A stretch of DNA of 47,040 nucleotides. It comes from Lachnoanaerobaculum orale (GTDB lineage Bacteria > Bacillota > Clostridia > Lachnospirales > Lachnospiraceae). Where the stretch lies: positions 356,367-403,406 of the forward strand of contig NZ_RRCM01000002.1 in NCBI RefSeq assembly GCF_003862485.1. Reading direction: 5' to 3'. The notes beneath the pieces were generated by a model. It searched no databases. It was not told the origin of the DNA and worked only from the letters and a program-made list of their open reading frames with translations. The stretch's first letter is position 1, and every line of letters begins with the position of its first letter. This document shows positions 15,580 through 43,388 of the stretch, one piece after another. The translations under genes and the position numbers were made by a program.

Positions 15580-15618
15580 TAAAAAATTTATCAAACTTTG
15601 TACATCAAGGAGGAGCTT

Positions 15619-16905: not shown

Positions 16906-16926
16906 TTAAAATATAAAAGGGGAAAT

Positions 16927-18354: not shown

Positions 18355-18408
18355 TATATTTTTGTGTTAATGAATATTATAATCTTAATAAGATATATTT
18401 GAGCAATA
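18352..18408 (+). repeat. Upstream block A, copy 2
   Basis: 51 of 57 bases match 15523-15579. It begins in the stop codon of paralogue 2 and runs to 34 bases before the start of paralogue 3. It includes ATTATAAT, a possible -10 element. Confidence 0.7.
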
Positions 18409-18441
18409 GAGAACTTGTATTTTTCAAATAGGGAGAAGATT

Positions 18442-20304: not shown

Positions 20305-20322
20305 ATATATTTGGAGGAGACT

Positions 20323-21663: not shown

Positions 21664-21724
21664 ATAAAATAAAAATTATGTGGTATACTAAGACAAAAGT
21701 ATATTCCGGATATAGGAGGAAAAA

Positions 21725-22357: not shown

Positions 22358-22378
22358 ATTATTATATAAAGGAGAAAG

Positions 22379-23014
22379 ATGAAGAAGAATATTAAACTTA
22401 TAATGGCAGGTATTGTGGTTTTGTCGGCACTTTCCATAACTGCTTGTAAAGATAACAAGACCGAGAGTAAAGCTGAAAGTAAGACGGAGAGTCCTGTTGC
22501 AAGTACTGTAGAAAGCACTGCTGAGCGTGCAAACAATGAAGATATGAACGGTACATATGACGGCAGTGTATATACCAATAAAGTATTTAATATAAAGTTT
22601 GATGCCAAAACAGTAAATATGGAGATGGTAAGTACCGAGGATCTTAGCGATATGCAAAAAAAGACACATGATGATACATTGAAGATGTATGCACATGACA
22701 CTGCAAACAGCAGCTCGGTACTGTTCGGACTTGTAAATATAACCTCGGATTTAAAGGCCTATATTGACGGAAATATAGCAAGAATTAATAAGGATAATGA
22801 GGGTGCAGGAGATATTAAGGCGGAAAGTACCACTATAAAATTTTTGGGTCAGGATGCTCCTTGTATAAATGCAAAGTTGACTGCAAACGGTGTAACACAG
22901 TATCATACAGAGGTATTTTTAGAGTCCGGAAAGGATGTATCCGTTATAGTTATAAATGCTAAAGATGAAAAGGTTGTTAAAGACTGCTTGAACGCCTTTA
23001 CAAAAGCGAAGTAA
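22379..23014 (+). CDS. Single-domain lipoprotein of the array (paralogue 6)
   Basis: A 211-residue predicted lipoprotein; lipobox SITAC with cysteine at 23, then a Ser/Thr/Glu spacer (about 25-55) and one domain opening with DGSVYTNKVFNIKFDAK and closing with VVKDCLNAFTKAK. It starts 21 bases after paralogue 5 with AAAGGAG as RBS and is followed 13 bases later by the SseB-like gene, so the group 21725-24887 looks like one operon. Function unknown. Confidence 0.85.
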   Translation: MKKNIKLIMAGIVVLSALSITACKDNKTESKAESKTESPVASTVESTAERANNEDMNGTYDGSVYTNKVFNIKFDAKTVNMEMVSTEDLSDMQKKTHDDTLKMYAHDTANSSSVLFGLVNITSDLKAYIDGNIARINKDNEGAGDIKAESTTIKFLGQDAPCINAKLTANGVTQYHTEVFLESGKDVSVIVINAKDEKVVKDCLNAFTKAK

Positions 23015-23027
23015 CTTTGGAGTATAT

Positions 23028-24182
23028 ATGTTTTGGGATAAGATAAAAGATGCTTTTTCATCTGAAAAAAGTGTTGATGATAATAAAGAAAACAAAGTAG
23101 TTAAGGGCAGATTTACCATGTTGGTAAAGGGCAGTAAAGACGAGGGAAGTATACTGCTTGAAGGTGATGTTTACGGTACTGTAAAAAAAGAGGATGTTAC
23201 CGTACTGTTTAAAGACGGAAAAGTATCTCATCTAAAGATAGCAAGGCTTATAGACAGTGCAGGCAATGATTGCGAATCTGTTACGGATGCATATGCAAAT
23301 ATAGGGTTTGAAAGTATAGATAAGGGTGATGATTTTAAATACGCCTTGATTACAAATATAGACTTTCAAATAGAATCCGATGTGAACAAGGCTGTAGAAA
23401 ATCCTTATATACTCGGTCTTTTATACGAATATGATAATAACTACAATGATGAAGACTTTATAAATCTGTTTTTCCGAGAGATGGTAATGTCACATTATCT
23501 GTTGCCTGTGAGAATGTCTGAAGATTTTAAAGGCAGCGGCAGTACGGTTTTGAAAAAAGATACAAAGATAGATATCTACGGTATCGAACTTCAAGGCGGA
23601 ATAAATGCACTTCCTGTATTTACAGACTGGGTCGCCTTGAAAAAATGGTCGGATATGGGAGTTGCAAATTGGAAAATGGAAACAATTATTGAAAGCTTTC
23701 CCGATATTGTGGGATTTTTAAAAGGTGAAGGCGGATTTATTATCAATCCTTACGGTCCGCAGTCGTTCTATATGAATTCGGAAAATATCAATAATATAGT
23801 GAATTCATCCGGATATCAAAGTCAGTTCGGTGATGCCAAAATAGAAACAAAGGTCGCAAAGGGCGGAGAGAAAAATTTTTTGGGGTATCCGCCTGATAAT
23901 GAAGAAGTGGCGGCTATAAAAAGGAGATTGGTCGCATTCGGAAATGCTCACAGCGAGATAAATTTAATAGATATGATGCTTAGAGTGGATGAGACAGGTA
24001 CAAAGTCATATCTTATAATAACGGATATAGATGACAGCGATGTAAGAAAGTATTATAAAGATATTTATAACAGTTGCAGAGACCTTTTAAGAGAAGTGGT
24101 ATATCTGGATTTTGCCACCTTAAAGCAGGCGGATTTTGCTAAAGATAAAATGAATCCGACGCCACTGTATAAAAAGAGTTGA
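23028..24182 (+). CDS. SseB-like protein with extra N-terminal domain
   Basis: A 384-residue cytoplasmic protein with no signal peptide. Residues about 25-75 form a small beta-rich domain (GRFTMLVKGSKDEGSILLEG). Residues about 125-270 resemble the SseB N-terminal domain, with INALPVFTDWVALKKWSDM and GGFIINPYGPQSFYMN, and about 290-370 resemble the SseB C-terminal domain. SseB was named for an effect on serine sensitivity in E. coli; its biochemical role is not known, and related domains also occur in other contexts. It is the only member of this operon not built from the array domain, set between paralogues 6 and 7, which hints at a shared process. RBS is weak (TTGGAG). Confidence 0.75.
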   Translation: MFWDKIKDAFSSEKSVDDNKENKVVKGRFTMLVKGSKDEGSILLEGDVYGTVKKEDVTVLFKDGKVSHLKIARLIDSAGNDCESVTDAYANIGFESIDKGDDFKYALITNIDFQIESDVNKAVENPYILGLLYEYDNNYNDEDFINLFFREMVMSHYLLPVRMSEDFKGSGSTVLKKDTKIDIYGIELQGGINALPVFTDWVALKKWSDMGVANWKMETIIESFPDIVGFLKGEGGFIINPYGPQSFYMNSENINNIVNSSGYQSQFGDAKIETKVAKGGEKNFLGYPPDNEEVAAIKRRLVAFGNAHSEINLIDMMLRVDETGTKSYLIITDIDDSDVRKYYKDIYNSCRDLLREVVYLDFATLKQADFAKDKMNPTPLYKKS

Positions 24183-24200
24183 TTATATTCAGGAGGAAAA

Positions 24201-24887
24201 ATGAGAAAAAATTTTAAACTTATAATGATCGGTATTTTGACAGTGTCCGCACTGTCTTTTACAGCTTGCGGCGGTAAAGCAAACAAGGCGGAGACTACAG
24301 CTGAAAGTACTGTAGAGAGCACTGCGGCAACTACTGAAGAAAGCAGTGAGACTGCTGCCGAGAGCACTACGGAAAGTGCCGGTGAGACTTCAAGTGCAGC
24401 AGCCGCTGATATAAAGGGTTCACTTAACGGTGATGTGTATACAAATGACGAATTCAATATAAAGTTTGATGCCAAGGCAGGCGGTATGGTAATGGCAGGA
24501 TCTGAAGAGTTCAACGCTATGAGATCAATGTCAAGTGATGATACATTGGAGATGTATGCATATGACGACAGTTATACAAAAATAGCGATGTTCGGTGTTT
24601 TGAAGGATAACACGGATATTAAATCTTATATAGATGAGAATATAGCTACAATAAAGAAGGACAATGAGGGAATAGGCGAGAACAATATAAAAGTGGAAAG
24701 TTCTACTCTAAAGTTCTTGGGAGAAGATGCTCCATGTCTTAATGCACAGTTGACTTCAGGCGGTGTAACACAGTACCATACACAGGTATTTATAAAGTCC
24801 GGAGACCATGTAGCGGTAATAGCCGTAAACGGTTTGGATGAGCAGAGTATAAAGGACTGCTTAGCAATGTTTACAAAGGCAAAATAA
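24201..24887 (+). CDS. Single-domain lipoprotein of the array (paralogue 7)
   Basis: A 228-residue predicted lipoprotein. Lipobox SFTAC (cysteine 23). A long Thr/Ser/Glu/Ala spacer (about 27-70), such as TTAESTVESTAATTEESSE, probably spans the cell wall. One domain follows, opening LNGDVYTNDEFNIKFDAK and ending SIKDCLAMFTKAK, nearly the same as in paralogues 5 and 6. AGGAGG precedes the ATG, 18 bases after the SseB-like gene. Function unknown. Confidence 0.85.
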   Translation: MRKNFKLIMIGILTVSALSFTACGGKANKAETTAESTVESTAATTEESSETAAESTTESAGETSSAAAADIKGSLNGDVYTNDEFNIKFDAKAGGMVMAGSEEFNAMRSMSSDDTLEMYAYDDSYTKIAMFGVLKDNTDIKSYIDENIATIKKDNEGIGENNIKVESSTLKFLGEDAPCLNAQLTSGGVTQYHTQVFIKSGDHVAVIAVNGLDEQSIKDCLAMFTKAK

Positions 24888-24959
24888 AGTTTTAAAGGGT
24901 AAATTTTAAGTTTTTGCATTAGTATCTTAACAATTAAACAAAGGCAGGTTAAAAAAATA

Positions 24960-24988
24960 TTTACATTTTAATCACATTGTTGTAATAT
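24960..24988 (+). promoter_or_regulatory. Promoter for paralogue 8
   Basis: TTTACA (24960-24965), 17 bases, TAATAT (24983-24988), within a 168-base AT-rich gap that has no gene. It suggests that the last lipoprotein is transcribed on its own. Confidence 0.5.
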
Positions 24989-25055
24989 TTTATCATAAAG
25001 CAATCACACAAAAATTTTACTATATGTAAAAAAGTATATTACATGGAGTATTGAT

Positions 25056-25796
25056 ATGAAAAAAAATATTTTTATACCTTTATTGTTTTTAACAGTGGTG
25101 ATGACTGCCTGCAGTAACGGTGCCAAGAGTGAAACTACGGCAAGTACAACTGCGGCTGCAGAGACTACCACAGTTGCGACTACGACTACCGAAGCTCCTA
25201 CTACAGCTGAGACTACAACTCAGGCTGCGGTAATTGAGGAAGAGAGTCATGCGGAGGACGATATACAGTTTTACAGAGGAAAAAAAGAAAACAATGTATA
25301 TACCAACAGCGTCTTCAATATCAAGTTTGATGCACCTGCCAACGGCTACAAGATGCAAAGCAGAGACAATATCGCACAGATGAGAGATATTTTCATCAAA
25401 CAGTCAGGTATGTCACAGGAAGAGGCGGACAGCAGTATATATATGGATGTATATGCTACCAGTGAGAACGGCAAGGGTGTCAGCAGTGTGAATGTAGTCA
25501 TAGAGAAGATGGGTACACCTTTTGAAAATGAGACCGAACTTGCAAAGGTTGTGGACAAGCTGCAAAATCAGTATAAGGCTGCAGGTATGGTAAATGTCAG
25601 CGTCGAGAGCGATAAGGCAAGGTTCAACGGAAAGGAGACCATTGCACTGAACGCTACCGATACAAGCGGAAATTATACCGTATACAGAAAGCAGATTTAT
25701 ATTAAGTCCGGAAACTTTATGGCTATTATTACAGCGAGCAGTACTTCCGAGGAGAAGGCACAGAAAGCGCTTGACGGATTTACAAGTTTGAACTAA
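25056..25796 (+). CDS. Single-domain lipoprotein of the array (paralogue 8, diverged)
   Basis: A 246-residue predicted lipoprotein: lipobox VMTAC, cysteine 19. The spacer (about 25-65) is almost pure Thr/Ala/Glu, e.g. TTTVATTTTEAPTTAETTTQ, typical of a cell-wall-spanning stretch. One array domain opens KENNVYTNSVFNIKFDAP, has YMDVYATSE in the middle, and closes QIYIKSGNFMAIITASSTS then EEKAQKALDGFTSLN. It has its own promoter and terminator, and is the most diverged single-domain member. Function unknown. Confidence 0.85.
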   Translation: MKKNIFIPLLFLTVVMTACSNGAKSETTASTTAAAETTTVATTTTEAPTTAETTTQAAVIEEESHAEDDIQFYRGKKENNVYTNSVFNIKFDAPANGYKMQSRDNIAQMRDIFIKQSGMSQEEADSSIYMDVYATSENGKGVSSVNVVIEKMGTPFENETELAKVVDKLQNQYKAAGMVNVSVESDKARFNGKETIALNATDTSGNYTVYRKQIYIKSGNFMAIITASSTSEEKAQKALDGFTSLN

Positions 25797-28706: not shown

Positions 28707-30194
28707 ATGATAAACAGACTTATAAATGAGCTTATGTATTATGCTTTAAGTGAGCATTTGGTGGATGAAGATGACAAAGTATTTGTGACAAACAGTTTGC
28801 TGGCTTTGTTTAATCAGGTGGAGTTTCATGAAGAAGAAATCAAGGAAGAAAGAGTGCTTGCGGATATTCTAAAGGATATGTGCGACTTTGCTCTGAAAGA
28901 GGGAATTATAGAAGATGACAGTGTGACTGTGACAGACCTCTTTGATACAAAAATTATGGGACTTTTGACACCGATGCCGTCTACAGTAAGAAGAGTATTT
29001 AAGGAAATATACAGTGTGGACAGTAAGCTTGCAACGGATTATTTTTATAAGCTTAGTAAGAGGTCAAACTATATAAGAGTGGACCGTATAGCAAAGGATG
29101 AGAAGTGGGTGACAGATACAGCCTACGGACCTATTGATATTACTATAAATCTTTCAAAGCCAGAAAAGGATCCCAGAGATATTGCAAAAGCCGGAGCGGC
29201 AAAAAAGTCAGGCTATCCAAGCTGTTTACTCTGTATGGAGAACGAGGGCTATGCAGGAACATTCTCACATCCTGCAAGGCAAAATCTCAGACTGATTCCT
29301 ATAGCATTGGACGGTGAGGATTACTTTTTACAGTATTCACCATATGTGTACTACAATGAACACTGTATTATCTTCAACAAAGAACATAAACCGATGAAAA
29401 TTGACAGGGCTGTATTTAAGAAACTGCTTGAGTTTGTAAAGCTTTTCCCACATTATACTGCAGGTTCAAATGCCGACCTTCCTATAGTAGGAGGTTCCAT
29501 ACTAAGTCATGACCATTTCCAGGGAGGCGGATATGTTTTTGCAATGGCAAAGGCGCTTTATGACAGGAAATTTGTACTTAAAGGTTATGAGGATTTGAAT
29601 GCAGGTATTGTAAAATGGCCTATGTCCGTAATCAGACTTCAGGGAAAGGATATTGACAGGATAGTACAGGCGGCCGACCACATTTTATCAAGTTGGAGAG
29701 CATATAGTGATGAGGAAGCTTTTATCTTCAGTGAGACTGAAGGCACACCTCACAATACCATAACACCTATTGCAAGGATGCATAAAGATTTGTATGAACT
29801 TGACCTGGTGCTTAGAAATAATATCACTACAGAAAAGAGCCCTTGGGGTGTATACCATCCTTCTGCCGATCTTCACCATATAAAGAAAGAAAATATAGGT
29901 CTGATTGAGGTTATGGGACTTGCAGTACTTCCTGCCAGACTGAAAAGAGAGATGGAAGAACTTGAAGAGTATATACTTGAAAATAAGGACATCCGCAACA
30001 ATGAAGTATTAAAAAAGCATGCAGACTGGGTGGATGAGTGGATAAGCAACTACAATATAGAAAAAGAAAATATTCACAGCATTGTTCAGGCGGAAATCAG
30101 TAAGGTATTTGTAAAAGTACTTGAATGTGCCGGAGTTTATAAGAGGGACGAAGAAGGACAGGAAGCATTTGACAGGTTTATAAAGACATTGTAA
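28707..30194 (+). CDS. galT: Hexose-1-phosphate uridylyltransferase GalT (class II)
   Basis: A 495-residue enzyme of the Firmicute-type GalT family, transferring UMP between UDP-glucose and galactose 1-phosphate in the Leloir pathway. Seen: FSHPARQNLRLIP, YNEHCIIFNKEHKPM, and the active-site-like GGSILSHDHFQGG near 262-274. Length fits class II GalT (around 490-500). A GAGGAG motif lies 15 bases before the ATG, a rather long spacing, but no nearer start exists. No galK or galE is adjacent. Confidence 0.92.
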   Translation: MINRLINELMYYALSEHLVDEDDKVFVTNSLLALFNQVEFHEEEIKEERVLADILKDMCDFALKEGIIEDDSVTVTDLFDTKIMGLLTPMPSTVRRVFKEIYSVDSKLATDYFYKLSKRSNYIRVDRIAKDEKWVTDTAYGPIDITINLSKPEKDPRDIAKAGAAKKSGYPSCLLCMENEGYAGTFSHPARQNLRLIPIALDGEDYFLQYSPYVYYNEHCIIFNKEHKPMKIDRAVFKKLLEFVKLFPHYTAGSNADLPIVGGSILSHDHFQGGGYVFAMAKALYDRKFVLKGYEDLNAGIVKWPMSVIRLQGKDIDRIVQAADHILSSWRAYSDEEAFIFSETEGTPHNTITPIARMHKDLYELDLVLRNNITTEKSPWGVYHPSADLHHIKKENIGLIEVMGLAVLPARLKREMEELEEYILENKDIRNNEVLKKHADWVDEWISNYNIEKENIHSIVQAEISKVFVKVLECAGVYKRDEEGQEAFDRFIKTL

Positions 30195-30241
30195 ATCGTG
30201 AATAATAAAATATTAAGTTTATATTTATAAATCGTGATTGT

Positions 30242-30288
30242 AAGTCAATACTCTAATCATATATAATTAGAGTGTTGGCTTATTTTTT
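30242..30288 (+). terminator. Terminator after galT
   Basis: A 16-bp stem with two mismatched or wobble positions (30242-30257 with 30266-30281), loop of 8, then six T. Confidence 0.85.
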
Positions 30289-30326
30289 ATAAAAAATATG
30301 ATAAGCCGTTAAGAAGCGGAGCAATT

Positions 30327-32195
30327 ATGAAGGAAAATAGAAATTATTACAAGAAAAAGATTTATCTTGCCTTACTGATTATTACATTTATTTTAGGTTT
30401 TGTAAGCCTGTATGAATATTACAGGATGACGATTCACAATCCGTTCAGATTACTTTCCACTGTTTTATACGGAGTTATAAAGTTGTTTTTATTCACACCC
30501 CCTATATCGACGGATGATAAAACAAGTTTTTTATATGAGATTGCAAAGTGGCTTGCACCGATACTTACATCCACTTTTATATTTACCAAGATTTCAAATA
30601 CTTTGCTTCATATAAAAAATATATGGTTTAATAAGATAAGTGCAAATCATATCCTTGTCTTTGAAAACAGCGTTATGGGAGAGACATTGATTAACAATCT
30701 TATAGATGATAAAAATTCTTATAAGATATCACTTATATCAAAACATTTTATAGATGACAATCTGAAGAGTAAGTATGAGAAAAAGGGAGTGGCGACTTAT
30801 CAGATAGACTTTGAAAAAAGTGATAAGAATGAGATAAGAGAGTTTTTAAATACTGTAAATATCAATAATGTAAAATATATGTTTTTCTGTTCGGATACGG
30901 ATTTGGAAAACTATGCCCTTTATATAAATGTGATAAAAAGGATAAAGCCGCAAAGACATATAGGATGTTATATAAAGTGTGAGTCAAATACCGTATCATC
31001 GTATATTGAAGATATGATTGTCTATGAAAGAGAGAAAAAAGAAAATCTCAAAAAAATAGATACGACACATTTTAATCAGACAGATTTGACTGTAAGAAAA
31101 ATCATGTGTGAAAGTCTTGTAAATGAGAGTATATCAAAGAGTATGGATTCATTATCTTCTATGGGAGATATAATATCGGCAGAGCAGATAGATGAAAATA
31201 TCAAAAGAATGCATATAGTGGTGATTGGTATAAATGAACTTACAGGTACATTATTAAAGTTCATTGCAAATGATATGACTACAAAGCTTACTGAGGATAC
31301 GCTTATAAGTATAATGGATTATGATGCCGATACCAAGACGGAAAAGTTGTTTGCCGAAAATATAGGGTTAAAAAAGACTTTGGATTTTCATATAACGGAC
31401 TTTAATAAAGTGCCTTTATATGAGAGTTTAAGAATTATGAAGGAAAGACCTTCACTAATATTTTTGATGAATGAGGATGTGGTAAAAAGTCTTAAATACC
31501 TGAATATAATAAATAAGCAGTTCATTGATGTTGCAAAGATAATAAGAAATGTGTCAAATATTGATTTGACCTATGCACTGCCCAAGGATGAAAATATAAA
31601 GCTCTTCGGGGACGTTTCTCAGATTATGACAAGTGACATCCTTATAAGAGAGGCTCTTGATAATCATGCCAAGAAGTTCAATAACAGCTATAACGAGTAT
31701 TCACAGTTGCTTTTAATGGGCGGAGGCAGCAGCTGGAATGAGCTTTCCTATGTTAAGAAGACATCTTCAAGACTGTCGGCAATGCACGCAGGAGTGAAGG
31801 AAGATATATTAAGAAAAATATTCTTTGATAAGTCACAGGATTTTATAAAGGACTATTTGAATAAAAAGTTCGAAGAGTTTAAAAAATTGGAAGAAATCAT
31901 GAAAACGGATAGTGAGAAGTTTAAGACAGAGTTTCGTGAATTTTTGAAAGCCAATCCTATACTTGATTTTCTTTCAAGTCTTGAGCATAAAAGATGGTGT
32001 AACAGCTATTATACAATGAACTTTGTATACGGAGAAAAAAAGGACGAGAACTTAAAGACACATCCGTGTCTGATAGATGATTGGAACAGAGTGCTGGGTG
32101 ATAAGTTTGATGTATGTCATCCGGAGTATGATTTATTATCGGTGTTTACTTTGTTTTTGGGAGAGGATAATAATGGAAAAAGAAAAGAAGCATAG
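30327..32195 (+). CDS. Membrane TrkA-N / RyR domain protein
   Basis: A 622-residue protein. Two hydrophobic helices lie near 11-30 and 70-90. Two Rossmann-like TrkA-N domains follow: one from about 107 (HILVFENSVMGETLINNL, degenerate glycine motif) and one from about 293 (MHIVVIGINELTGTLL). The C-terminus (about 545-622) matches the RyR domain first described in ryanodine receptors: SLEHKRWCNSYYTMNFVYG, then KTHPCLIDDW. RyR and TrkA-N domains in bacteria have been linked to nucleotide-dependent conflict signalling. The ORF overlaps the TIR gene by 23 bases, so the two are translationally coupled. Proposed role: membrane-bound sensor or effector that binds a nucleotide; inferred. The ATG at 30327 has a weak RBS (AAGCGGAG). 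Confidence 0.8.
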   Translation: MKENRNYYKKKIYLALLIITFILGFVSLYEYYRMTIHNPFRLLSTVLYGVIKLFLFTPPISTDDKTSFLYEIAKWLAPILTSTFIFTKISNTLLHIKNIWFNKISANHILVFENSVMGETLINNLIDDKNSYKISLISKHFIDDNLKSKYEKKGVATYQIDFEKSDKNEIREFLNTVNINNVKYMFFCSDTDLENYALYINVIKRIKPQRHIGCYIKCESNTVSSYIEDMIVYEREKKENLKKIDTTHFNQTDLTVRKIMCESLVNESISKSMDSLSSMGDIISAEQIDENIKRMHIVVIGINELTGTLLKFIANDMTTKLTEDTLISIMDYDADTKTEKLFAENIGLKKTLDFHITDFNKVPLYESLRIMKERPSLIFLMNEDVVKSLKYLNIINKQFIDVAKIIRNVSNIDLTYALPKDENIKLFGDVSQIMTSDILIREALDNHAKKFNNSYNEYSQLLLMGGGSSWNELSYVKKTSSRLSAMHAGVKEDILRKIFFDKSQDFIKDYLNKKFEEFKKLEEIMKTDSEKFKTEFREFLKANPILDFLSSLEHKRWCNSYYTMNFVYGEKKDENLKTHPCLIDDWNRVLGDKFDVCHPEYDLLSVFTLFLGEDNNGKRKEA

Positions 32196-35100
32196 AACAT
32201 CGTCTGATGAAATGCTGAATGCATCGTATGAGTACAATGAAGTCAGCTATAAGTATGACGCTTTTATAAGCTACAGGCATGTGGAGCCGGATCAGACTGT
32301 AGCAAAATATGTTCATCAGATGATAGAGACATTTAAGGCTCCGAAGGAGTTTTATAAAGACGGTAAAAGACCTGTTTTCAGGGTATTTCGTGACAGGGAA
32401 GAACTTGCAGCCAGAGATCTCGGTGCATCTATAGAAGAAGCGCTTGCACAAAGCAGATATCTGGTAGTCATATGTTCAAAGAGAACTCCGCTGTCTGAGT
32501 GGTGTCAAAAAGAGATAGAGATATTCAAAGGCTTACATGGTGAAGAAAAGATAATACCTGTACTTATAGAGGGAGAACCCGATGAAGCCTTTCCAAGTCC
32601 TTTAAAAGAAATAAAAGATCAGGGTGACGGGCATGAGATATTGGCGGCGGATATAAGACCTGATGAGATATTCAGTGATGAATTTAAAGGATATGAAAGT
32701 ATACAGGATAAGCATAAATTAAATGAGCTTACGAAGCAGTCTATAAATCTTTTAAAGACCGAAAAGTACAGAATAATGGCAACTATACTGGGTTGCAGCT
32801 TCGGAGATTTGAAGCAAAGAGATAGGGAAAGAAAGAATAAAAGAATTTTAAACCTTTCATTATCGGCAGGCGCGGTATTTTTGGTATTCGGAATGTTTAT
32901 GGCGAGTGCTTATCACAAGGCGGAAGTTGCAAGGCAGGAGGCGGTGCAGTCAAATGCAAGTATTTTGATGAAGACTTCAAAGGACTATGCAGGTGACGGA
33001 GACTATTTAAAAGCCGCTCTTGTTGCAAAAGAGGCTATGAAACCTATAAGCAAAAATATGAAGCATTACAATACTTTAAAGGCTGAAGAGTTCTCCATAT
33101 TCAACAGTGTTATATATCACGGAGGGGCTTCCACACTTACAGTGATTCCCACAAAAAACAACATGACATTTATGGCATTAAGCAATGACGAGAAATATGT
33201 TGCATACGGTCTTGATAACAATAACACCGCTATAGCAAGTGTGGAAAACGGAGAAATAATAAAGGAATTTGAAGGGCACAGTCAGCAGGTAAAACTTTTA
33301 AGTTTTTCTGTGGACGATAAGTATCTGGCATCGGCTTCATTTGATAACACCTGTATCATATACGATATCAATACAGGCGAACAAAAGGCTGTACTTGATA
33401 TAGAAGGTATACCTATGCTGATGCGGTTCTCAACAGACGGTACAAAACTGTTCTATGCCGTATTATATAATGACAGTACCGTATTTTATGTATATGATAC
33501 CATAAACTGGGAGAAGAAATCTGAATTCACAGTTGAAGGTCAGGTAAAATCTGCAGATATAAAAAAAGACGGCAGTGAGATACTTATAACATTGAATACA
33601 AATACTGACGACCAGGTTACCAGAAGAAGTATGGAAGACGGAAGTATAATAGATGTTATACCGAAGATATCCGAAAAGAATATTATTACACAGGAAGATT
33701 CTTATAAGCCGTATAAGTCCGCCGCATATTCTGCCGACGGCCAAAATATACTGTTGCTTACAGATGCCGAAATAATAAAGATGTCTTTTGACAAGCAGGA
33801 AGTTTTCAGAAAAGATATGTATATAAATCCTGATGACAACAAGGTTATATATGAAAGTGACGACGGAGGAAAGATTGCCGTAAAGTCAAATACCAAAATA
33901 TATATATTGGACGGAAACAGCGGAGAAATATCGGATGAGATATATTTTGAAAAACTTAACCTGAAATATTATGTTTACAATCCCGATACAAATACCGTAG
34001 TAGGTTTTGGAGAAAACGGGAATTATTCTATATGGAAGGATAATGCGGTTGTAGAGGATAATCTGAAATACGGAAGCGGTACACCTGTCGAATTCAAGTT
34101 CTTAAAAGACGGAAGTAAGATATTGGCAAACTCACATGAGAGTCAGGCAATAAAGATAATTGATTTAAAATCCAGAGTCTCATCAGAATCGATATATGCA
34201 AGGATAATGGCAAATTCAAACGATTCTTCAAAGATGCTTTTGTCTGACGGAAAAGATGTTTTACTTTCAGGCGATGACGGAAAGACAAGCAGCAAGATAA
34301 ATGTGGACGAGTCTACAATAGACGGTGTCGCACCTGACAGTAAGTACTATAAGATATCAAATAACGGCAGGTACTATGCGACTGTTGTTACTGTATTAGA
34401 CAGTGATAAACCTGTACTGAAAGTATATGATTTACAGGAAAATGACAGTAAACAACTTGAGATGGACTCACTTTCATCTGTATTTAACTTTTCAAATGAC
34501 AGTGAGCAAATATTGTTGGCTGACGGTAAGAACGGACTTAGAGTATTTGATTCAAACAGTATGGAACAGGTGAAAAGCTACAGTGATATAAAAGACGATT
34601 CGGGAAAGATGATATTATCACCGGACTCGAAGATACTTGTTTTCAATAACATATCAGGCACGGCATCAATATGCGATATGGAAAACGGAGAGCATATTGA
34701 TGATGTGGCGGGAGAAGTACTGGATGTTCAAAATACCGGCGATGAGATAAAGCTTAAGGGAATAAAGAACAACACCGCATTCACATGGAGCAATAAGAGC
34801 GGTCTTGTCACATGGGATATGGATGATGCCTGCAGGCAGACTCCTCTAAGTTTTAACGATGTAAATATGTATAATGCAAATACAGATTTGCTGATGATGA
34901 TCAGAAATAATGAAAATGACAGAAAGTGTTATATAGTAGATTTTTCAACGGGAAAGGTCAGAATGACTTTAAATTCAGCAGTAAAAAAGTATACCGTCAA
35001 CGGTCATATCTCACCTGACGGTAAGCTTATAGCTATAGACCAGAACTACTATTCAAATTATGACAGTAAAAGTGCAAAGACCTCGTATTATACGGAGGCC

Positions 35101-35214
35101 AAGGTATATAAAATACTGAGTGAAGACGAAGTCTCAAAGGAAGTAGACAATATACTTGCAGGAAGAACACTCACACAGGATGAAAAAGTTCAAATCGGTA
35201 TAAGTGCAAAGTAA
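32173..35214 (+). CDS. TIR domain protein with transmembrane helix and WD40-like repeats
   Basis: A 1013-residue protein. Residues about 26-170 form a TIR domain: YDAFISYRHVEPDQ (27-40), VFRDREELAARDLG, and LSEWCQKEIEIF, where Glu114 (W-C-x-x-E) is at the position of the catalytic glutamate of NAD-cleaving TIR domains. One transmembrane helix lies at about 226-247. The remaining ~750 residues are beta-propeller-like WD40 repeats, e.g. GHSQQVKLLSFSVDDKYLAS then NTCIIYDINTG. Predicted topology: TIR in the cytoplasm and propeller outside, or the reverse. The ATG at 32173 has GGAGAGG 8 bases upstream and overlaps the previous gene; an upstream extension of 32 residues is disregarded. Possible roles: NAD-depleting immune effector with a propeller sensor, or a signalling scaffold. 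Confidence 0.85.
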   Translation: MEKEKKHRTSSDEMLNASYEYNEVSYKYDAFISYRHVEPDQTVAKYVHQMIETFKAPKEFYKDGKRPVFRVFRDREELAARDLGASIEEALAQSRYLVVICSKRTPLSEWCQKEIEIFKGLHGEEKIIPVLIEGEPDEAFPSPLKEIKDQGDGHEILAADIRPDEIFSDEFKGYESIQDKHKLNELTKQSINLLKTEKYRIMATILGCSFGDLKQRDRERKNKRILNLSLSAGAVFLVFGMFMASAYHKAEVARQEAVQSNASILMKTSKDYAGDGDYLKAALVAKEAMKPISKNMKHYNTLKAEEFSIFNSVIYHGGASTLTVIPTKNNMTFMALSNDEKYVAYGLDNNNTAIASVENGEIIKEFEGHSQQVKLLSFSVDDKYLASASFDNTCIIYDINTGEQKAVLDIEGIPMLMRFSTDGTKLFYAVLYNDSTVFYVYDTINWEKKSEFTVEGQVKSADIKKDGSEILITLNTNTDDQVTRRSMEDGSIIDVIPKISEKNIITQEDSYKPYKSAAYSADGQNILLLTDAEIIKMSFDKQEVFRKDMYINPDDNKVIYESDDGGKIAVKSNTKIYILDGNSGEISDEIYFEKLNLKYYVYNPDTNTVVGFGENGNYSIWKDNAVVEDNLKYGSGTPVEFKFLKDGSKILANSHESQAIKIIDLKSRVSSESIYARIMANSNDSSKMLLSDGKDVLLSGDDGKTSSKINVDESTIDGVAPDSKYYKISNNGRYYATVVTVLDSDKPVLKVYDLQENDSKQLEMDSLSSVFNFSNDSEQILLADGKNGLRVFDSNSMEQVKSYSDIKDDSGKMILSPDSKILVFNNISGTASICDMENGEHIDDVAGEVLDVQNTGDEIKLKGIKNNTAFTWSNKSGLVTWDMDDACRQTPLSFNDVNMYNANTDLLMMIRNNENDRKCYIVDFSTGKVRMTLNSAVKKYTVNGHISPDGKLIAIDQNYYSNYDSKSAKTSYYTEAKVYKILSEDEVSKEVDNILAGRTLTQDEKVQIGISAK

Positions 35215-35217
35215 AGA

Positions 35218-35249
35218 GCGGCTGTCGGGAAACGACAGCCGCCTTTTTT
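35218..35249 (+). terminator. Terminator after the TIR gene
   Basis: A perfect 10-bp GC-rich stem (GCGGCTGTCG at 35218-35227, CGACAGCCGC at 35233-35242) with a five-base loop and six T. Confidence 0.95.
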
Positions 35250-35283
35250 GGGTTCTTTGTCAAGTTTTTGGGTGAGTTTAATT

Positions 35284-36324
35284 TTACCATATGTGAAGTA
35301 TATGCTGCATCAAAAGACTTACTGCGGTAATTCCTATCCAACATATGCCACCTAGTATAATAGGTTTGCCACCGGATTTGATAAGCTTTATCAGATTACT
35401 GTTCAGTCCGATTGCAGCCATTGCCATAATGATACAGAACTTACTGAAATCCTTTAAAGGAGCAAAGGAATGTGAAGGAACACCTGCACTTAAAGCAACA
35501 GTAGTGATAACAGATGCGATAATAAAAAATATTATAAACATCGGAAATGATCTTTTAAGGCTGAAGCCGTTTTTATTATCATTTGACTTCTTTGCATTGA
35601 TTATTGCAAGCACCAAAGTAATGGGAATGATTGCAAGAGTTCTGGTAAGCTTTACCGTAACAGCCTTATCAAGAGTCTGAGTGCCCAGATTCCACATACT
35701 GTCCCAAGTGGAAGCGGCGGCGGTAACGGATGAAGTGTCATTTACTGCAGTTCCTGAAAATACTCCGAAAGCCTCTCCGCTTAGAGTATCAAAGCCAATC
35801 ATTTTTCCAAAAACGGGAAAGAGCAATGCAGCCAATACATTGAAAAAGAAAATAACGGATATGGCCTGTGCCACCTCGTCATCATCCGCATTTATTACAG
35901 GTGCTGTAGCCGCTATGGCGGAGCCTCCACATATGGAAGAACCTACTCCAACAAGAGTTGAAATATTGCCGGGGATCTTCATCAGCTTATGTAAAATAAA
36001 GGCAATTATAAGTGCGGTGGATATTGTGCATATGATTATAGGGAGCGACTGCCTGCCTGTTTGAAGTACAACGCTTAGATTAAGGCCGAACCCAAGGAAA
36101 ACAACAGCCGCCTGCAAAACATATTTTGAAGTGAACTTTATTCCGCTACCTGCCATGCCCTTATCATTCCAAACAAGAGTAATTATCATACCTGCAATAA
36201 TCGCAATCACCGGACCTCCGATTATAGGAAATCTCTTCCCCAGAAACCAAGCCGGCAGAGCAATGAGAAAGCATACAAGCATACCTATAAGATTTTTTGA
36301 TAAGAAAGATTTTATTGAATTCAT
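35284..36324 (-). CDS. YeiH family putative sulfate exporter
   Basis: A 346-residue integral membrane protein with about 10 hydrophobic segments, of the YeiH/UPF0324 family. The diagnostic stretch is [19 protein letters not shown] followed by [14 protein letters not shown] (about 125-165). Some members have been proposed to export sulfate or act in taurine/sulfur metabolism. The start is set at the ATG at 36324, preceded by AAAGGA; an earlier in-frame start adds 14 residues without such a site. It is convergent with the TIR gene and divergent from the restriction locus. A LysR regulator, often adjacent, is absent here. Confidence 0.88.
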
Positions 36325-36521: not shown

Positions 36522-38240
36522 ATGGATATAACATATCTTAAAAGATTGGAAAAGCTTGATACATCGGGTATTTCAGAAGCTATAGACAGAGAACTTAGGG
36601 TAATATCAGGTGATAATAAATCAAGATATTCAACCATATTAGCGTATATATTGTACAGAGCGTCCAAAGATAACATTAAAGACCTTGACAGTATTGAATT
36701 GTTTGAGAGCAGCTGCGATGTAGACAGCAGTATAAAAATGGAGTTGGATTATTATTGTCATGATATATGGCCTGTATTAGACAGATTAAAGATATATGGA
36801 TTTGATGAAGATAATCTGCTTGCCTATCTGTTATTTAACAATGATTTGGAAGACAGTTTAAGAGAGACATCTACTCCTAGAGGAATATTAAAGCTTGCAG
36901 CTAAGATATTGGATGTACAGGAAAATGAGAGTGTATTGGAGCTTTGTTCAGGCAAAGGGAATTTCTTTGTTGAGCTTGCATTGCTGAGAGAGAATATAAA
37001 ATATACCGGTATAGAGCTTAGTATGGCAAATAACTTTATTGCAAATATAAGGGCATCAGTATTGGAAAGGGATATATCTTCGGTTTTGAGTGATGCCATG
37101 ACATACAAAGCGGAAAATAAGGCGGATAAGCTGTTTGCCAATTATCCTTTTTTGATTAACTTTCCGGATATGGAAAATATTGTAAAAGATATGGAAATGT
37201 TGCCTGATAATATAAAGAGAGCTTCCTCAGACTGGATATTTAACTTGAAATTGGTTGAGCAGATGAAATCAGGCGGAAAGGCTGTAGCTGTCATGACAAA
37301 CGGAACAACATGGAATTCTACAGACAAAAAAATAAGAGAATACTTTGTTAAAAGCGGATTTATAGAGGCAACCATTTTGCTACCACCAAAGTTGTTTCCG
37401 GGAATATCTGTTGCAACAACCCTTGTGATTTTCAGTCATGGCAACACTAATATTAAGATGATTGATGCCGGTGAGAATTTTACAAAAGAAGGAAGAAGGA
37501 ATGTATTATCGGATAATGACATATCAGATATACTGGATTTATTACAAAAAGATGGTAAGAACTCTATCACAATAAGTATAAAGGAGATTGCAGAAAATGA
37601 TTATATAATCAATGCAAGAAGATACTTGGAGAAAGCACCTGAGATTAAAGACGGTGTTGCTATTGCGAACATTGTAAAGAGTATAACAAGGGGAGCACAG
37701 CTGAGGGCATCAGATTTGGATGAAAACAAATCAGCTGAGCCTACAAACTACAGATATATTATGTTGTCAAATATAAATGACGGAGATATCTATTTTACAG
37801 ATAATCAGTACTTGAAGGATATACAGCCTAATTTAAAGAAGTTTTATGCAAGGAATAATTCAATCATTTTGACAAAGACGGGATCACCGGACTTTAAATC
37901 GGCAGTTGTACAGGTGGCAGAAGGTATAGAAATATTGGCTACAGGAAATATGTTTATTCTTGAAATAGATGAGACGAAAGCTGATCCATATTATGTGCAG
38001 GCACTTTTTGACAGTGAACTTGGAAGAGCCTTATTTAAAAGTATATATGTCGGCAGTGCAATCCCGACAATTTCTTTAGAAAAGCTGAAAAAACTTGAGA
38101 TTCCTTTGCCTTCGCTGGAGGAACAGAATATAATAGGGGAGAAGTATAAAGAGGAACTTGGGAGGATAGCCGACTTAAAAGAAAAGCTTTTGACCTCAAG
38201 AGAAAAACTGAAGCGAATTTACAATATAAAAACAATTTGA
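36522..38240 (+). CDS. Type I methylase-specificity fusion, altered motif IV
   Basis: A 572-residue protein with an N-6 adenine methylase-like region (about 85-340) and an HsdS-like target recognition region with C-terminal coiled coil (about 365-572; ending PLPSLEEQNIIGEKYKEELG). AdoMet motif: VLELCSGKGNFF (about 139-150). Motif IV, which should read (N/D)PP(Y/F), is NYPF at 207-210, so catalysis is doubtful. A second, standard HsdM with NPPF follows 35 bases later. It starts at ATG 36522 after AAAGGAGGG, first in the operon under three operators. It may be an inactive regulator or an accessory methylase; which one cannot be told from sequence. No helix-turn-helix is evident that would make it the repressor. 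Confidence 0.75.
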   Translation: MDITYLKRLEKLDTSGISEAIDRELRVISGDNKSRYSTILAYILYRASKDNIKDLDSIELFESSCDVDSSIKMELDYYCHDIWPVLDRLKIYGFDEDNLLAYLLFNNDLEDSLRETSTPRGILKLAAKILDVQENESVLELCSGKGNFFVELALLRENIKYTGIELSMANNFIANIRASVLERDISSVLSDAMTYKAENKADKLFANYPFLINFPDMENIVKDMEMLPDNIKRASSDWIFNLKLVEQMKSGGKAVAVMTNGTTWNSTDKKIREYFVKSGFIEATILLPPKLFPGISVATTLVIFSHGNTNIKMIDAGENFTKEGRRNVLSDNDISDILDLLQKDGKNSITISIKEIAENDYIINARRYLEKAPEIKDGVAIANIVKSITRGAQLRASDLDENKSAEPTNYRYIMLSNINDGDIYFTDNQYLKDIQPNLKKFYARNNSIILTKTGSPDFKSAVVQVAEGIEILATGNMFILEIDETKADPYYVQALFDSELGRALFKSIYVGSAIPTISLEKLKKLEIPLPSLEEQNIIGEKYKEELGRIADLKEKLLTSREKLKRIYNIKTI

Positions 38241-38275
38241 AATAAAAGTATTTTGTGAAAACAGAAAGGGAGATT

Positions 38276-39784
38276 ATGACAGGCGAATTAAAAAATAAAA
38301 TCGACGGATTGTGGGAGATATTCTGGACAGGAGGTATTACAAACCCTTTAGAAGTCGTGGAGCAGATGACATATCTTATGTTTATCAGAGATATTGACAG
38401 TGCAGACAATATAAGAGCAAAAGAAGCGGCAATGCTTGGATTACCTTTTAAGAGTATATTTGACGGTGAGGTGGAGATAGATGGACGTAAAGTGGAAGGC
38501 GAACAGCTGAAATGGTCTGTTTTCCATGATTTTCCTGCGCAAAGGATGTACAGTATAGTGCAGGAATGGGTTTTCCCTTTTATAAAAAATCTGCATGGTG
38601 ATAAAAAAAGTGCATACAGTAAATATATGAGTGATGCTATTTTTAAAGTAAATACACCTCTAATGCTTTCAAAGATAGTAGATGCTATGGATGAAATATA
38701 CGCAATAATGGATAAGGAGCAAAGTACCGATGTCAGAGGAGATGTATATGAGTATTTGCTTTCAAAACTTGAAAAATCAGGTGTAAACGGTCAGTTCAGG
38801 ACACCAAGGCATATTATAAAAATGATGGTAGAAATAACGGACCCACAGCCAAATGAGACTATATGTGATCCGGCGTGCGGTACCTCAGGATTTCTTGTAA
38901 TCAGTGGTGAGTACTTAAAAGAAAAATATAAAAAAGAAGTACTTATGGACAAAAAGAATAAAGAGCATTTTATGAACAGTATGTTCCATGGATTTGATAT
39001 GGATAGAACCATGCTTCGTATAGGTGCTATGAATATGATGACTCATGGTATCGAAAATCCCTGCATAGAATATAGGGATAGTTTATCCGATCAAAATCCT
39101 GATAAGGATAAGTATTCTCTTATACTTGCAAATCCTCCATTTAAGGGTAGCCTTGATGCTGATATAGTATCTACAGATCTATTGAAAATATGCAAGACTA
39201 AAAAAACCGAGCTATTGTTTTTGGCACTCTTTATAAGAATGTTGAAGATTGGAGGAAGATGTGCCTGCATAGTACCTGACGGTGTGCTTTTCGGTTCATC
39301 CAATGCTCATAAGGCTATAAGAAAAGAATTGATAGAAAATCAAAAGCTGGAAGCAGTAATATCTATGCCGTCCGGAGTCTTTAAGCCATATGCGGGAGTA
39401 TCTACAGGTATACTTATATTTACAAAGACCAATCATGGTGGAACAGATAATGTCTGGTTTTATGATATGACAGCGGACGGCAAGAGTCTGGATGATAAGA
39501 GAACTCCGATAGCAGATAATGATATACCGGATATCATAGCCAGATTCAAAAATCTTGACGGGGAAAAGGACAGAAAGCGTACAGATAAATCCTTCATGGT
39601 ACCTAAGAGTGAAATCATAGAAAAAGATTATGACTTGTCTATCAATAAATATAAGGAAGTGGAGTATGTCCCTGTAGAATATCCGCCGACATCTGAGATC
39701 TTGGATGAAATAGAGAAGCTGAACGAACAGATAATGGAAGAGACCAGAGTATTAAGAGAATTATTGAAAGGGACCTCAAATTGA
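38276..39784 (+). CDS. hsdM: Type I restriction-modification methylase subunit HsdM
   Basis: A 502-residue N-6 adenine methyltransferase subunit. The N-terminal HsdM helical domain starts GLWEIFWTGGITNPLEVVEQ. The AdoMet site is DPACGTSGFLV (about 198-208), and motif IV is ANPPF near 285-289. With HsdS it methylates adenines in a split recognition site, protecting host DNA. ATG 38276 chosen since AAAGGGAG lies just upstream; a GTG at 38255 does not have one. It is followed by hsdS after an 18-base gap. Confidence 0.93.
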   Translation: MTGELKNKIDGLWEIFWTGGITNPLEVVEQMTYLMFIRDIDSADNIRAKEAAMLGLPFKSIFDGEVEIDGRKVEGEQLKWSVFHDFPAQRMYSIVQEWVFPFIKNLHGDKKSAYSKYMSDAIFKVNTPLMLSKIVDAMDEIYAIMDKEQSTDVRGDVYEYLLSKLEKSGVNGQFRTPRHIIKMMVEITDPQPNETICDPACGTSGFLVISGEYLKEKYKKEVLMDKKNKEHFMNSMFHGFDMDRTMLRIGAMNMMTHGIENPCIEYRDSLSDQNPDKDKYSLILANPPFKGSLDADIVSTDLLKICKTKKTELLFLALFIRMLKIGGRCACIVPDGVLFGSSNAHKAIRKELIENQKLEAVISMPSGVFKPYAGVSTGILIFTKTNHGGTDNVWFYDMTADGKSLDDKRTPIADNDIPDIIARFKNLDGEKDRKRTDKSFMVPKSEIIEKDYDLSINKYKEVEYVPVEYPPTSEILDEIEKLNEQIMEETRVLRELLKGTSN

Positions 39785-39797
39785 GGTTTGTGTGGGA
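39781..39797 (+). repeat. Direct repeat at the 5' end of hsdS copy 1
   Basis: TTGAGGTTTGTGTGGGA; it matches 42093-42109 at 16 of 17 bases. Both copies stand just before the start codon of an hsdS gene. Confidence 0.8.
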
Positions 39798-39802
39798 AAA
39801 TA

Positions 39803-40987
39803 ATGACTGAAAAAGTTAAGTTAAATGAGATTACAGATATATATTTAGGGGTAACTCATACACCAGAGTATGTATTAGATGGTGTTCCTTTTTTGTCAGT
39901 TAAGGATATTAGTGGTGGAAAGATATGTTTTGATGAGTGTAAATTTATTTCTCAAAAAGAATATAATTCACTTTCTGAAGGTGCTAAGCCTAAGGTTGGT
40001 GATATGTTATTTTGTCGTGTAGGTACTATAGGAAAACCTATAATTATTCCGGAAGGAACACCTTTGTTTGGTTCATTTGTTAGTTTGGGGTATTTACGCA
40101 ATAAAGCCAAAGATAGATGTAATTTAAACTACTTGAGATATTGGATGTACTCTAATTCGTTTTGGAAGCAAGTTAATAAAAATGTTAAAGGTGCATCACA
40201 AGTAAATTTGAATACTGGTTGGCTTTCCAATTTTGAGATTAGATTGCCCGATTTTTCTGAACAGACATATATAGTATCTATACTTGATAAATGTAAGTTA
40301 ATAATTGAAAGAAGAGAAGAAGAACTAAAAAAGTTTGATAATCTCATTAGAGCCCGATTTGTTGAGATGTTTGGAGATTTGGTAGAGGGTGATAAGATTA
40401 AAACTAATAGACAGAAAATTGGTACTATTGCTTCTGTAACAAAATTGGCAGGATTTGAGTTTACTAAGTATATAAAATATAAAGATATAGGCTCAGGAGA
40501 TGATGTTATAATGCTTAGAGGTTTGAACTGTAAGAGAGGACAACTTATCTTAGATAATATAAAATGGATTGACAGAGAAACTTCTAATCTTTTACCCAGA
40601 TCAAAGCTTTATATTGGAGATATTCTCATAACATATGCTGGTACAATTGGTGATGTTGCTTTAGTCGATGAAGATAATAAATATCATCTTGCACCTAATG
40701 TCGGGAAAATCACCTTAGTGGATAAGTCAAAATACAATCCAGTTTTTTTAGTGCACCTTTTAATGTATACAAACGAATATATAATGTCATTTGCATCTAA
40801 AGTAGCACAGGCTTCAATCAATATGCAGAAGATTAGAGATTTTGAATACTATTTTCCAAATTATGAAGAACAAAAATATTTTGCTAATTTTGCTACACAC
40901 GTCAACAAATCAAAAGTTGAGGTGAAAAGGGCACTTGATGAAGCACAGCTATTATTTGATAGTCTTATGCAAAAGTACTTTGGATAG
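39803..40987 (+). CDS. hsdS: Type I specificity subunit HsdS (copy 1)
   Basis: A 394-residue specificity subunit with two target recognition domains (about 5-165 and 205-370) and two conserved helical parts. The central one has NLIRARFVEMFGDL near 180-193; the C-terminal one has VNKSKVEVKRALDEAQLLFD. Full length for the family. It chooses the two halves of the DNA target. The start is the ATG at 39803 with only a weak purine run (TGGGAAAA) upstream. It is strongly AT-rich like the second copy, unlike hsdM and hsdR, which suggests exchange of the gene by recombination. Confidence 0.9.
   Translation: MTEKVKLNEITDIYLGVTHTPEYVLDGVPFLSVKDISGGKICFDECKFISQKEYNSLSEGAKPKVGDMLFCRVGTIGKPIIIPEGTPLFGSFVSLGYLRNKAKDRCNLNYLRYWMYSNSFWKQVNKNVKGASQVNLNTGWLSNFEIRLPDFSEQTYIVSILDKCKLIIERREEELKKFDNLIRARFVEMFGDLVEGDKIKTNRQKIGTIASVTKLAGFEFTKYIKYKDIGSGDDVIMLRGLNCKRGQLILDNIKWIDRETSNLLPRSKLYIGDILITYAGTIGDVALVDEDNKYHLAPNVGKITLVDKSKYNPVFLVHLLMYTNEYIMSFASKVAQASINMQKIRDFEYYFPNYEEQKYFANFATHVNKSKVEVKRALDEAQLLFDSLMQKYFG
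40349..40377 (+). repeat. Direct repeat in the middle of hsdS copy 1
   Basis: A 29-base segment covering the conserved RARFVEMFG codons that matches 42667-42695 with a single mismatch. This is the natural crossover point for swapping one target recognition domain. Confidence 0.8.
40901..40915 (+). repeat. Direct repeat near the 3' end of hsdS copy 1
   Basis: GTCAACAAATCAAAA, identical to 43192-43206 in the second hsdS gene. Confidence 0.75.
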
Positions 40988-41112
40988 GAAATAAATAATA
41001 AAAAACTGGGATAAATGTATGAAAAAGCGTCTATATTTGAGTATAAACAAATCAGGATATGTAAAAAGTATTGGTTGGTGTAGGATGATGGTATATAAAG
41101 GAGTATACTGTC

Positions 41113-42081
41113 ATGGAAGAAAAAATTGTAATCATACTAAACGAAATGTCTGAGTATTTATCTATTTCACAGATGAAAAAGCTTCAGGAGGTTATCTTGA
41201 AAGCTTTTTCTGATAATGTGGCTACTAAGCAAAACATATCGAATGAAGATTTCTTGCAACTCTTCTTAGATGCAAAGAAAGTGGAAGGATGTTCTGAAAG
41301 AACTATACAGTATTATAAGGTAACTATAGAACACTTGCTAAAGAATAAAGATACACCTGTGAGAAGAGTGACTACAGAAGAGATGAGGGAGTATCTCTCT
41401 GACTATCAAAAGATAAATAATTGCAGTAATACTACTATTGACAATATAAGGAGAAATATTTCCAGTTTCTTTTCTTGGCTTGAAGAGGAGGACTATATTC
41501 TAAAAAGTCCTATGAAGCGTATACATAAAATAAAGACCAGAACTGTGGTGAAGAGTGTTATTTCAGATGAGAGTATAGAAAGACTTAGAGACAATTGTGA
41601 ATCAAAAAGAGATAAGGCGATAATTGACCTATTATATTCCACAGGTATTAGAGTAGGTGAGCTTGTGAATCTGAATATCAGTGATATAGATCTTGAAGGT
41701 CGTGAATGTGTAGTATATGGTAAGGGAAATAAAGAGAGAAAAGTATACTTTGATGCCAAAGCAAAGGTACACCTTATTGATTATATTGAGAGTAGAGATG
41801 ATGATAAGGAAGCCCTTTTTGTAACTTTGGATGCACCACATGACAGATTGAAAATAAGTGGAGTGGAGATTAGATTGAGAGAACTTGGCAGAAAGTTGAA
41901 TCTTGAAAAAATCCACCCGCATAAGTTCCGTAGGAGTATGGCAACAAGAGCCATAGATAAGGGAATGCCAATAGAACAAGTGCAAAAGATACTTGGTCAC
42001 TCTCAAATAGATACTACAATGCAATACGCCATGGTAAACCAAAATAATGTAAAGAATTCCCATCAAAGATATATTGCTTAA
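41113..42081 (+). CDS. Tyrosine recombinase between two hsdS genes
   Basis: A 322-residue integrase of the XerC/D-like type. The N-terminal SAM-like DNA-binding part covers about 45-145; the catalytic domain has the Arg in TGIRVGELVNL (about 180), Lys in GKGNKERKV, HxxR in HPHKFRR (about 269-274), the His in LGHS and the nucleophile Tyr in MQYAMV near 306. All catalytic residues look intact. AAGGAG lies before the ATG. Recombinases in this position of type I loci invert or exchange hsdS segments and so switch DNA methylation patterns. The 125-base gap upstream holds no gene. Confidence 0.92.
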   Translation: MEEKIVIILNEMSEYLSISQMKKLQEVILKAFSDNVATKQNISNEDFLQLFLDAKKVEGCSERTIQYYKVTIEHLLKNKDTPVRRVTTEEMREYLSDYQKINNCSNTTIDNIRRNISSFFSWLEEEDYILKSPMKRIHKIKTRTVVKSVISDESIERLRDNCESKRDKAIIDLLYSTGIRVGELVNLNISDIDLEGRECVVYGKGNKERKVYFDAKAKVHLIDYIESRDDDKEALFVTLDAPHDRLKISGVEIRLRELGRKLNLEKIHPHKFRRSMATRAIDKGMPIEQVQKILGHSQIDTTMQYAMVNQNNVKNSHQRYIA

Positions 42082-42092
42082 AATTTTGCAAC

Positions 42093-42109
42093 TTGAGGTT
42101 TGTGAGGGA
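42093..42109 (+). repeat. Direct repeat at the 5' end of hsdS copy 2
   Basis: TTGAGGTTTGTGAGGGA, one mismatch to 39781-39797. A weaker inverted relative (TTGAGGTTGCGAGG) lies on the minus strand at 43217-43230 in the 3' end of the second hsdS. Confidence 0.75.
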
Positions 42110-42117
42110 TGGTTTAG

Positions 42118-43263: not shown

Positions 43264-43388
43264 AATAGCCATAGTTAACGATTTCCTTAATATAAAGGGC
43301 CTTATACAAATAAAACCTTAAGAATATGCTCCTAAGTTGAGATATTCTCTATTAAATACTACTTACTAAAACTATGGGGAGGTTTGCC

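Follow-up and report, generated by a model that had tools for sequence, protein, structure and literature searches.

An overlapping gene pair encoding a RyR-TrkA-type membrane protein and a TIR-WD40 protein, a candidate nucleotide-signalling unit of Lachnoanaerobaculum orale

Organization of the locus

The window, by which we mean the whole 47,040-nucleotide stretch of L. orale DNA analysed here, contains two overlapping genes on the plus strand: gene A (30327..32195), encoding a RyR-TrkA-type membrane protein of 622 aa, and gene B (32173..35214), encoding a TIR-TM-WD40 protein of 1013 aa. The mechanical ORF of gene B starts at 32077; we took 32173 as the start because this position is kept in relatives and a Shine-Dalgarno-like ggagagg lies just before it at 32160..32166 (+), within gene A. 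With this start the two genes overlap by 23 bases, so both the coordinates and the overlap given in the original prediction were correct. Terminators had also been predicted on both sides of the unit, and terminator-like hairpins were indeed located at its upstream edge, 3' of galT (30240..30283, +), and at its downstream edge (35217..35243, both strands). Five terminator-like sites occur in 30100-35500 versus 1.9 expected from shuffles. Both genes are under purifying selection, with dN/dS of 0.07-0.20 in nine of ten comparisons, those in which dS was finite.

In the wider window, galT is preceded by a run of related genes (15598-25796) that appears to be a local gene family; several genes of this run matched the same relatives by tblastn. 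Downstream of the pair lies a type I restriction-modification locus (36522-46682). It comprises two hsdS genes separated by a Xer-like recombinase, an hsdM, an hsdR and an extra N6-methylase/specificity fusion. The two hsdS genes have direct repeats in common, and no inverted repeat of 25 bases or longer was found.

Gene B encodes a TIR domain, a single helix and a WD40 propeller

Residues 25-165 of B (32245..32667, +) matched the Pfam families TIR_2, TIR and ThsB_TIR above their cut-offs, the last of these (PF08937) with 33 bits against a cut-off of 21.2. A hydropathy scan placed one TM helix at residues 225-243 (32845..32901, +) with positive charge on the TIR side, and WD40 matches, also above cut-off, cover part of a beta-propeller region extending over residues ~325-990 (33145..35142, +), the end of which is an estimate. 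The TIR, single helix and WD40 architecture originally described for B was thus recovered in full. The putative catalytic residue Glu114 (32512-32514, +), assigned by alignment, was invariant in all eight TIR domains aligned. The best solved relatives of the B TIR are plant TIRs including Roq1, and HMM alignment pairs Glu114 with Roq1 position 86, which we take to be the catalytic glutamate of Roq1. The pocket glutamate on which the original prediction laid weight is therefore kept. Among PADLOC models, PDC-S66 (2.2e-6) and SAVED5 TIR (2.3e-4) resemble B, in the TIR part only.

In five of six B proteins, the segment preceding the helix is more positively charged than the one following it (+3 to +5 versus 0 to +2); in the sixth, L129, the two are equal (+2, +2). 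This pattern suggests from sequence that the TIR domain lies inside and the propeller outside the cytoplasm. Extra hydropathy segments occur in the TIR core of G504 and in the WD40 part of L129 and L150, and the outside placement of WD40 is for this reason not firm. Toll-like receptors likewise comprise a sensor (LRR), one TM helix and a cytosolic TIR; B differs in having the opposite N-C order and WD40 instead of LRR, and its TIR is likely enzymatic.

Gene A is related to channel-type proteins

A hydropathy scan of A identified a first TM helix at residues 12-30 with a positive N side (30360..30416, +) and a hydrophobic segment, STVLYGV...KLFLFTP, at residues 42-60 (30450..30506, +). A second TM region with the motif E-x-A-x-W-x-AP covers residues ~72-94 (30540..30608, +); among the four pair-type A copies scanned, only that of E. 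yurii passed the hydropathy cut-off at 76-94, and the window copy fails it. Two Rossmann-like regions follow, both with approximate limits: a TrkA-N-type region at residues ~106-235 (30642..31031, +), delimited by alignment with the relatives L089 and L091, and a second at residues ~294-500 (31206..31826, +) that is kept across the family. Pfam detected no TrkA-N in gene A itself at E<=1. We assign TrkA-N to A because L089 and L091 carry PF02254 (TrkA_N), together with RyR, above cut-off and because an hhalign comparison of the A family with five further members spans 459 columns (99.9%, E 5e-32). Of the membrane and TrkA-N features originally predicted for A, hydrophobic segments at 12-30 and 42-60 were recovered in the window sequence; TrkA-N is undetectable in A alone and emerges through its relatives.

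Two of the five aligned members, L018 and L019, have Ion_trans_2 above cut-off and the motif TTVGYGD, with RyR scoring 28.3 bits in L018 and 26.1 in L019, above and just below the cut-off of 27.4. In alignments with these two proteins, the canonical selectivity filter TxGYG is absent from gene A: the filter position reads STVLYGV in one alignment, and in a second it falls in a gap within the conserved KLFxFxP stretch of A. Judged by these alignments, gene A is a relative of bacterial channel-type proteins along most of its length. Lacking a canonical K+ filter, it is doubtful as an ion conductor, and conduction by A would be a guess. The L018 locus itself carries two overlapping tandem genes for TrkA-type membrane proteins (6560-8722 and 8685-10337), the first with a weak RyR match and the second with a K+ filter.

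A RyR domain at the C-terminal end of A

Residues 544-606 of A (31956..32144, +) were assigned to a RyR domain by Pfam and family profiles. In window A alone, Pfam PF02026 reached E 0.0035 and 18 bits against a cut-off of 27.4, and the Pfam RyR profile alone found nothing in the genome itself at E<=0.001. Since this profile was too insensitive here, we used family profiles. A phmmer search of window A against solved structures gave 4.6e-5 for a RyR1 chimera and 0.6 for 35TM_A. With a nine-sequence A family profile, which takes in clearer RyR relatives, these values were 6.5e-16 and 3.1e-5, and bacterial RyR structures were matched at about 5e-8; a wider family profile reached 4.3e-30 for the RyR1 chimera and 2.5e-7 for 35TM_A. 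The RyR match of the original prediction, sub-threshold in A on its own, thus became clear in family profiles and strengthened with wider searching instead of vanishing, and on these profile scores we regard the domain as real. The A profiles match the RyR1 chimera within the RyR domain only; A resembles animal ryanodine receptors in having a RyR domain in a channel context and differs from them in that the similarity is confined to this domain.

35TM corresponds to RyDEP, a phage protein, in complex with 3'cADPR (PMC13232231, partial text). RyDEP binds and cleaves 2'/3'cADPR; the terminal ribose of the ligand lies at His75 and Asp117, its adenine at Trp78 and its phosphates at His100. Six of eight RyDEP relatives also bound the signals, and cleavage was seen with none of the eight (PMC13232231, partial text). 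In A, His554 (31986), Trp557 (31995) and His579 (32061) are the equivalents of RyDEP His75, Trp78 and His100 and have the same spacing (0, +3, +25), a match that assumes that the 35TM chain index is the published number plus one. The column of Asp117 falls in a gap beside Asp595 of A. RyDEP and A are therefore alike by RyR profile and by these three residues, but RyDEP is a phage counter-defence enzyme whose relatives are sponges (PMC13232231, partial text), whereas A is a host membrane fusion paired with a TIR protein. Of the domains in A, RyR is a likelier sensor than TrkA-N.

Linkage of A and B across genomes

Whether A and B are neighbours elsewhere had been proposed as a check on the pair. 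We found them adjacent in 11 genomes from two phyla and in both gene orders. In a search for relatives in 145 genomes, A was matched in nine, three of these matches being weak and distant. All five congeners carry A, and B adjoins it in each of them as well as in the window genome; in G005 A has a frame break beside an intact B. The pair lies downstream of galT in five of the six genus members and at other genomic sites in E. yurii and G003. B comes first in F. vincentii, in G504 and on the Butyrivibrio fibrisolvens plasmid pNP243, where the A homologue is annotated as hypothetical; in G503 A comes first and both genes are in pieces. In the A tree, seven linked copies form one clade (95/88), and two others fall among unlinked copies with weaker support. 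The sequences leave room for a single origin, and the A/B linkage may have arisen once.

The plasmid search returned one record with A and eight with the B TIR part. Among the latter, a RyR neighbour is present in F. vincentii and Butyrivibrio, and no RyR was found in the two ORFs neighbouring the B-type TIR of Sinorhizobium K101. The F. vincentii record (L064, NZ_CP084075.1), titled as a plasmid, has a length of 2.1 Mb and a single annotated feature and is possibly a mislabelled chromosome. In viral contigs no relative of A or of the B TIR part was confirmed, and the A search found no relative of A in phages. Proximity to defence islands, also raised in the original prediction, proved weak: the restriction-modification locus lies downstream here and a GmrSD gene lies near the G003 copy, and the other surroundings are housekeeping-type or unclassified.

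Other members of the RyR family also have TIR neighbours. RyR proteins lie beside or near other TIRs at L091, L093 and L095. A TIR-LRR protein adjoins a RyR protein in G813, a TIR_2 protein is flanked by two RyR genes in G650, and in G623 a RyR-TrkA gene has TIR proteins two genes away on each side. DUF4062 proteins adjoin the RyR-TrkA gene in G220 and G734, and a 96-aa RyR protein is divergent beside a TIR-WD40 gene in G336. The search for neighbouring TIRs relied on a narrow home-made profile (E<=1e-4), which may miss distant ones; four TIR proteins at three loci were seen by eye and confirmed by Pfam.

Co-occurrence of A and B among genomes of the class

Among 391 genomes of the class, A was found in 26 (E<=1e-6) and the B TIR in 39 (TIR-TM profile, E<=1e-15), the latter count resting mainly on the TIR part and including some proteins without WD40. 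Both were present in 19 genomes versus 2.6 expected (Fisher 3e-16). As a control we used the defence family Abi_2 (57/391), which overlapped with A in 4 genomes versus 3.8 expected and with B in 9 versus 5.7 (p 0.09). The A, B and Abi_2 counts, each from 391 genomes with agreeing handles, were treated as one draw. Kinship was handled to genus level, at which A occurs in 15 and B in 18 of 223 genera, with 10 shared (p 1.6e-9), nine of them with both in one genome. A strict set was also formed by dropping the window's own genome and partial or weak A matches (G000, G187, G210, G309 and G407 from A; G000 from B). Of the 21 A-positive genomes left in this set, 17 carry the TIR and four have no B-type TIR.

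Only three of the 19 co-occurring genomes have the genes linked (the window, G503 and G504). In 15 of the 16 unlinked cases they are on different contigs, and in G170 they are 135 kb apart at the nearest. Because the assemblies are drafts, with A close to the end of a contig in some of them, part of these cases may in fact be linked. The unlinked co-occurrence fits a diffusible link between the two proteins and raises the possibility of a single receiver serving several TIR receptors per cell. In family f31, all nine A-positive genomes are B-positive, and the regions surrounding A in them yielded no TIR; the five of nine neighbourhoods inspected hold housekeeping-type genes. Some other RyR domain was present in 5 of 20 genomes with B but not A, G336 among them, versus 0 of 20 B-negative controls, the latter being printed non-matching genomes and non-random. 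The remaining 15 of the 20, including all nine of genus g193, had no RyR match.

Comparison with known systems

RyR domains have reportedly been treated by the Aravind group in nucleotide-centred conflict systems. ThsA, the effector of Thoeris, occurs in SIR2-SLOG, TM-macro and caspase types. Pfam found nothing of the SIR2, SLOG, macro or caspase kinds in gene A at E<=1, PADLOC returned no match for A, and no Thoeris model was among the matches of the pair. By this effector test the pair is not a Thoeris member, as the original prediction had anticipated in setting it apart from named TIR systems. Likeness to type I Thoeris (ThsB TIR with SIR2-SLOG ThsA) lies in the ThsB_TIR match and in the proposed cADPR-isomer signal. 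Two of the three effector types are named in the available part of PMC11204291. The TM-macro ThsA system described there resembles the pair in consisting of two genes, a TIR enzyme and a membrane effector with an ADP-ribose-type sensor. Here, in contrast, the sensor is RyR and not macro, the effector has Rossmann domains and a channel-like topology, and the TIR is itself membrane-anchored and carries a WD40 propeller (PMC11204291, partial text). Among the literature matches listed there was no described RyR-TrkA/TIR pair, and an earlier description is possible; the available parts of PMC9503650, PMC7159879 and PMC8195603 do not name a bacterial RyR-TrkA protein.

A proposed relay at the membrane and its alternatives

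We consider it reasonably probable that A and B work together at the membrane as a two-component nucleotide-signalling unit, a Thoeris-like relay. B would be a receptor-enzyme whose propeller senses something, probably outside the cytoplasm because one helix separates it from the TIR domain. The cytosolic TIR would use NAD+ to make a signal derived from ADP-ribose, for example a cyclic ADPR isomer. A would be the receiver-effector: its RyR domain would bind the signal, its Rossmann domains would relay the resulting change in the manner of the RCK domains of K+ channels, and the channel-like membrane portion would alter membrane permeability. What the sequences show directly is the two genes with their domains and conserved residues, their linkage and their co-occurrence; we infer TIR catalysis, the identity of the signal, ligand binding, topology, channel activity and a use in defence or stress; the case for the middle steps is circumstantial. 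The stimulus of B, the action of the membrane part of A and a role against phages are likewise what we infer. That one protein senses the product of the other, as first proposed, is favoured by the binding of 2'/3'cADPR by the RyR domain of RyDEP (PMC13232231, partial text) and by co-occurrence where the genes are unlinked, evidence that points to RyR more than to TrkA-N. Counting against the relay are the four strict-set genomes with A and no B-type TIR and the 15 genomes with a B-type TIR and no RyR match. So too do the clear channels L018 and L019, which are homologous to A over most of their length and keep the TTVGYGD that A lacks: unlike A, they had no TIR neighbour in the stretches inspected.

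TIR domains can deplete NAD+ directly, and B could on that account be a toxic NADase effector, with A as a sensor or brake: by binding NAD(H) or ADP-ribose through a Rossmann or RyR domain, A would hold B back or remove its product. For the sequestering or cleavage of cADPR by a RyR domain there is a precedent in RyDEP (PMC13232231, partial text). However, the 15 genomes without any RyR match argue that a B-type TIR has no obligatory antidote, and G005 keeps B intact beside a frame-broken A. A has no clear counterpart of the acid RyDEP Asp117, and a soluble RyR would be enough for clearing, yet A-type proteins retain their membrane part; we judge such a brake improbable. Somewhat less remote, though still unlikely, is a role in ion or osmotic homeostasis with no part in phage defence, in which A would act as a cation channel or transporter subunit under nucleotide control and B as a receptor for envelope stress. 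The relatives of A are ion channels or TrkA_N carriers, a propeller that is possibly outside would suit an envelope or ligand sensor, and both the position after galT in most of the genus and the housekeeping-type genes beside the inspected f31 copies would agree. Against this, the distribution is patchy (26 and 39 of 391 genomes), the occurrence in two phyla with changing order and place looks like that of a conflict system, and so do the TIR or DUF4062 neighbours of other family members. It is very improbable that the two are unrelated genes hitchhiking in a common transfer unit. Five of the seven window-clade copies share one locus and are therefore not independent, but there are two gene orders and different genomic sites, linked copies occupy two places of the A tree (though one origin is possible), and unlinked copies co-occur strongly.

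cADPR has long been proposed as a regulator of animal ryanodine receptors. A more tentative extension of the relay, which we hold to be possible but rather doubtful, is that a cADPR isomer made by bacterial TIRs gates RyR-domain ion channels, RyR being a host receptor related to the animal ryanodine receptor domain, which phages would later have taken over for use as a sponge or hydrolase. The family would then range from true channels (L018 and L019) to filter-less membrane effectors such as gene A. Under the relay, the pair would be a bacterial version of the signal-to-ryanodine-receptor link proposed in animals. It would offer a host receptor for TIR-made ADPR signals beyond the SLOG, macro and caspase-type receivers and a reason for phage-borne RyR-domain proteins, and would make the connection between cADPR and the ryanodine receptor domain testable in bacteria.

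Related domain combinations were observed at other loci. The TIR-WD40 genes of L141 and L142 (G206 and G305) adjoin a protein that carries a SLOG-like TGHRD motif close to the start and, in L142, a weak YAcAr match; this protein is possibly another type of receiver. In G623, RelA/SpoT, prokaryotic LSDAT (SLOG, below cut-off) and RyR are combined in one protein (L092:7817-10408, -) encoded ~12 kb from the RyR-TrkA gene. L097 (G256) encodes a 1507-aa protein with weak nuclease matches and a RyR-like stretch, the latter matched by a home-made profile and not by Pfam at E<=0.01; further genes within ~7 kb encode a RyR protein of 97 aa and a TIR protein of 399 aa.
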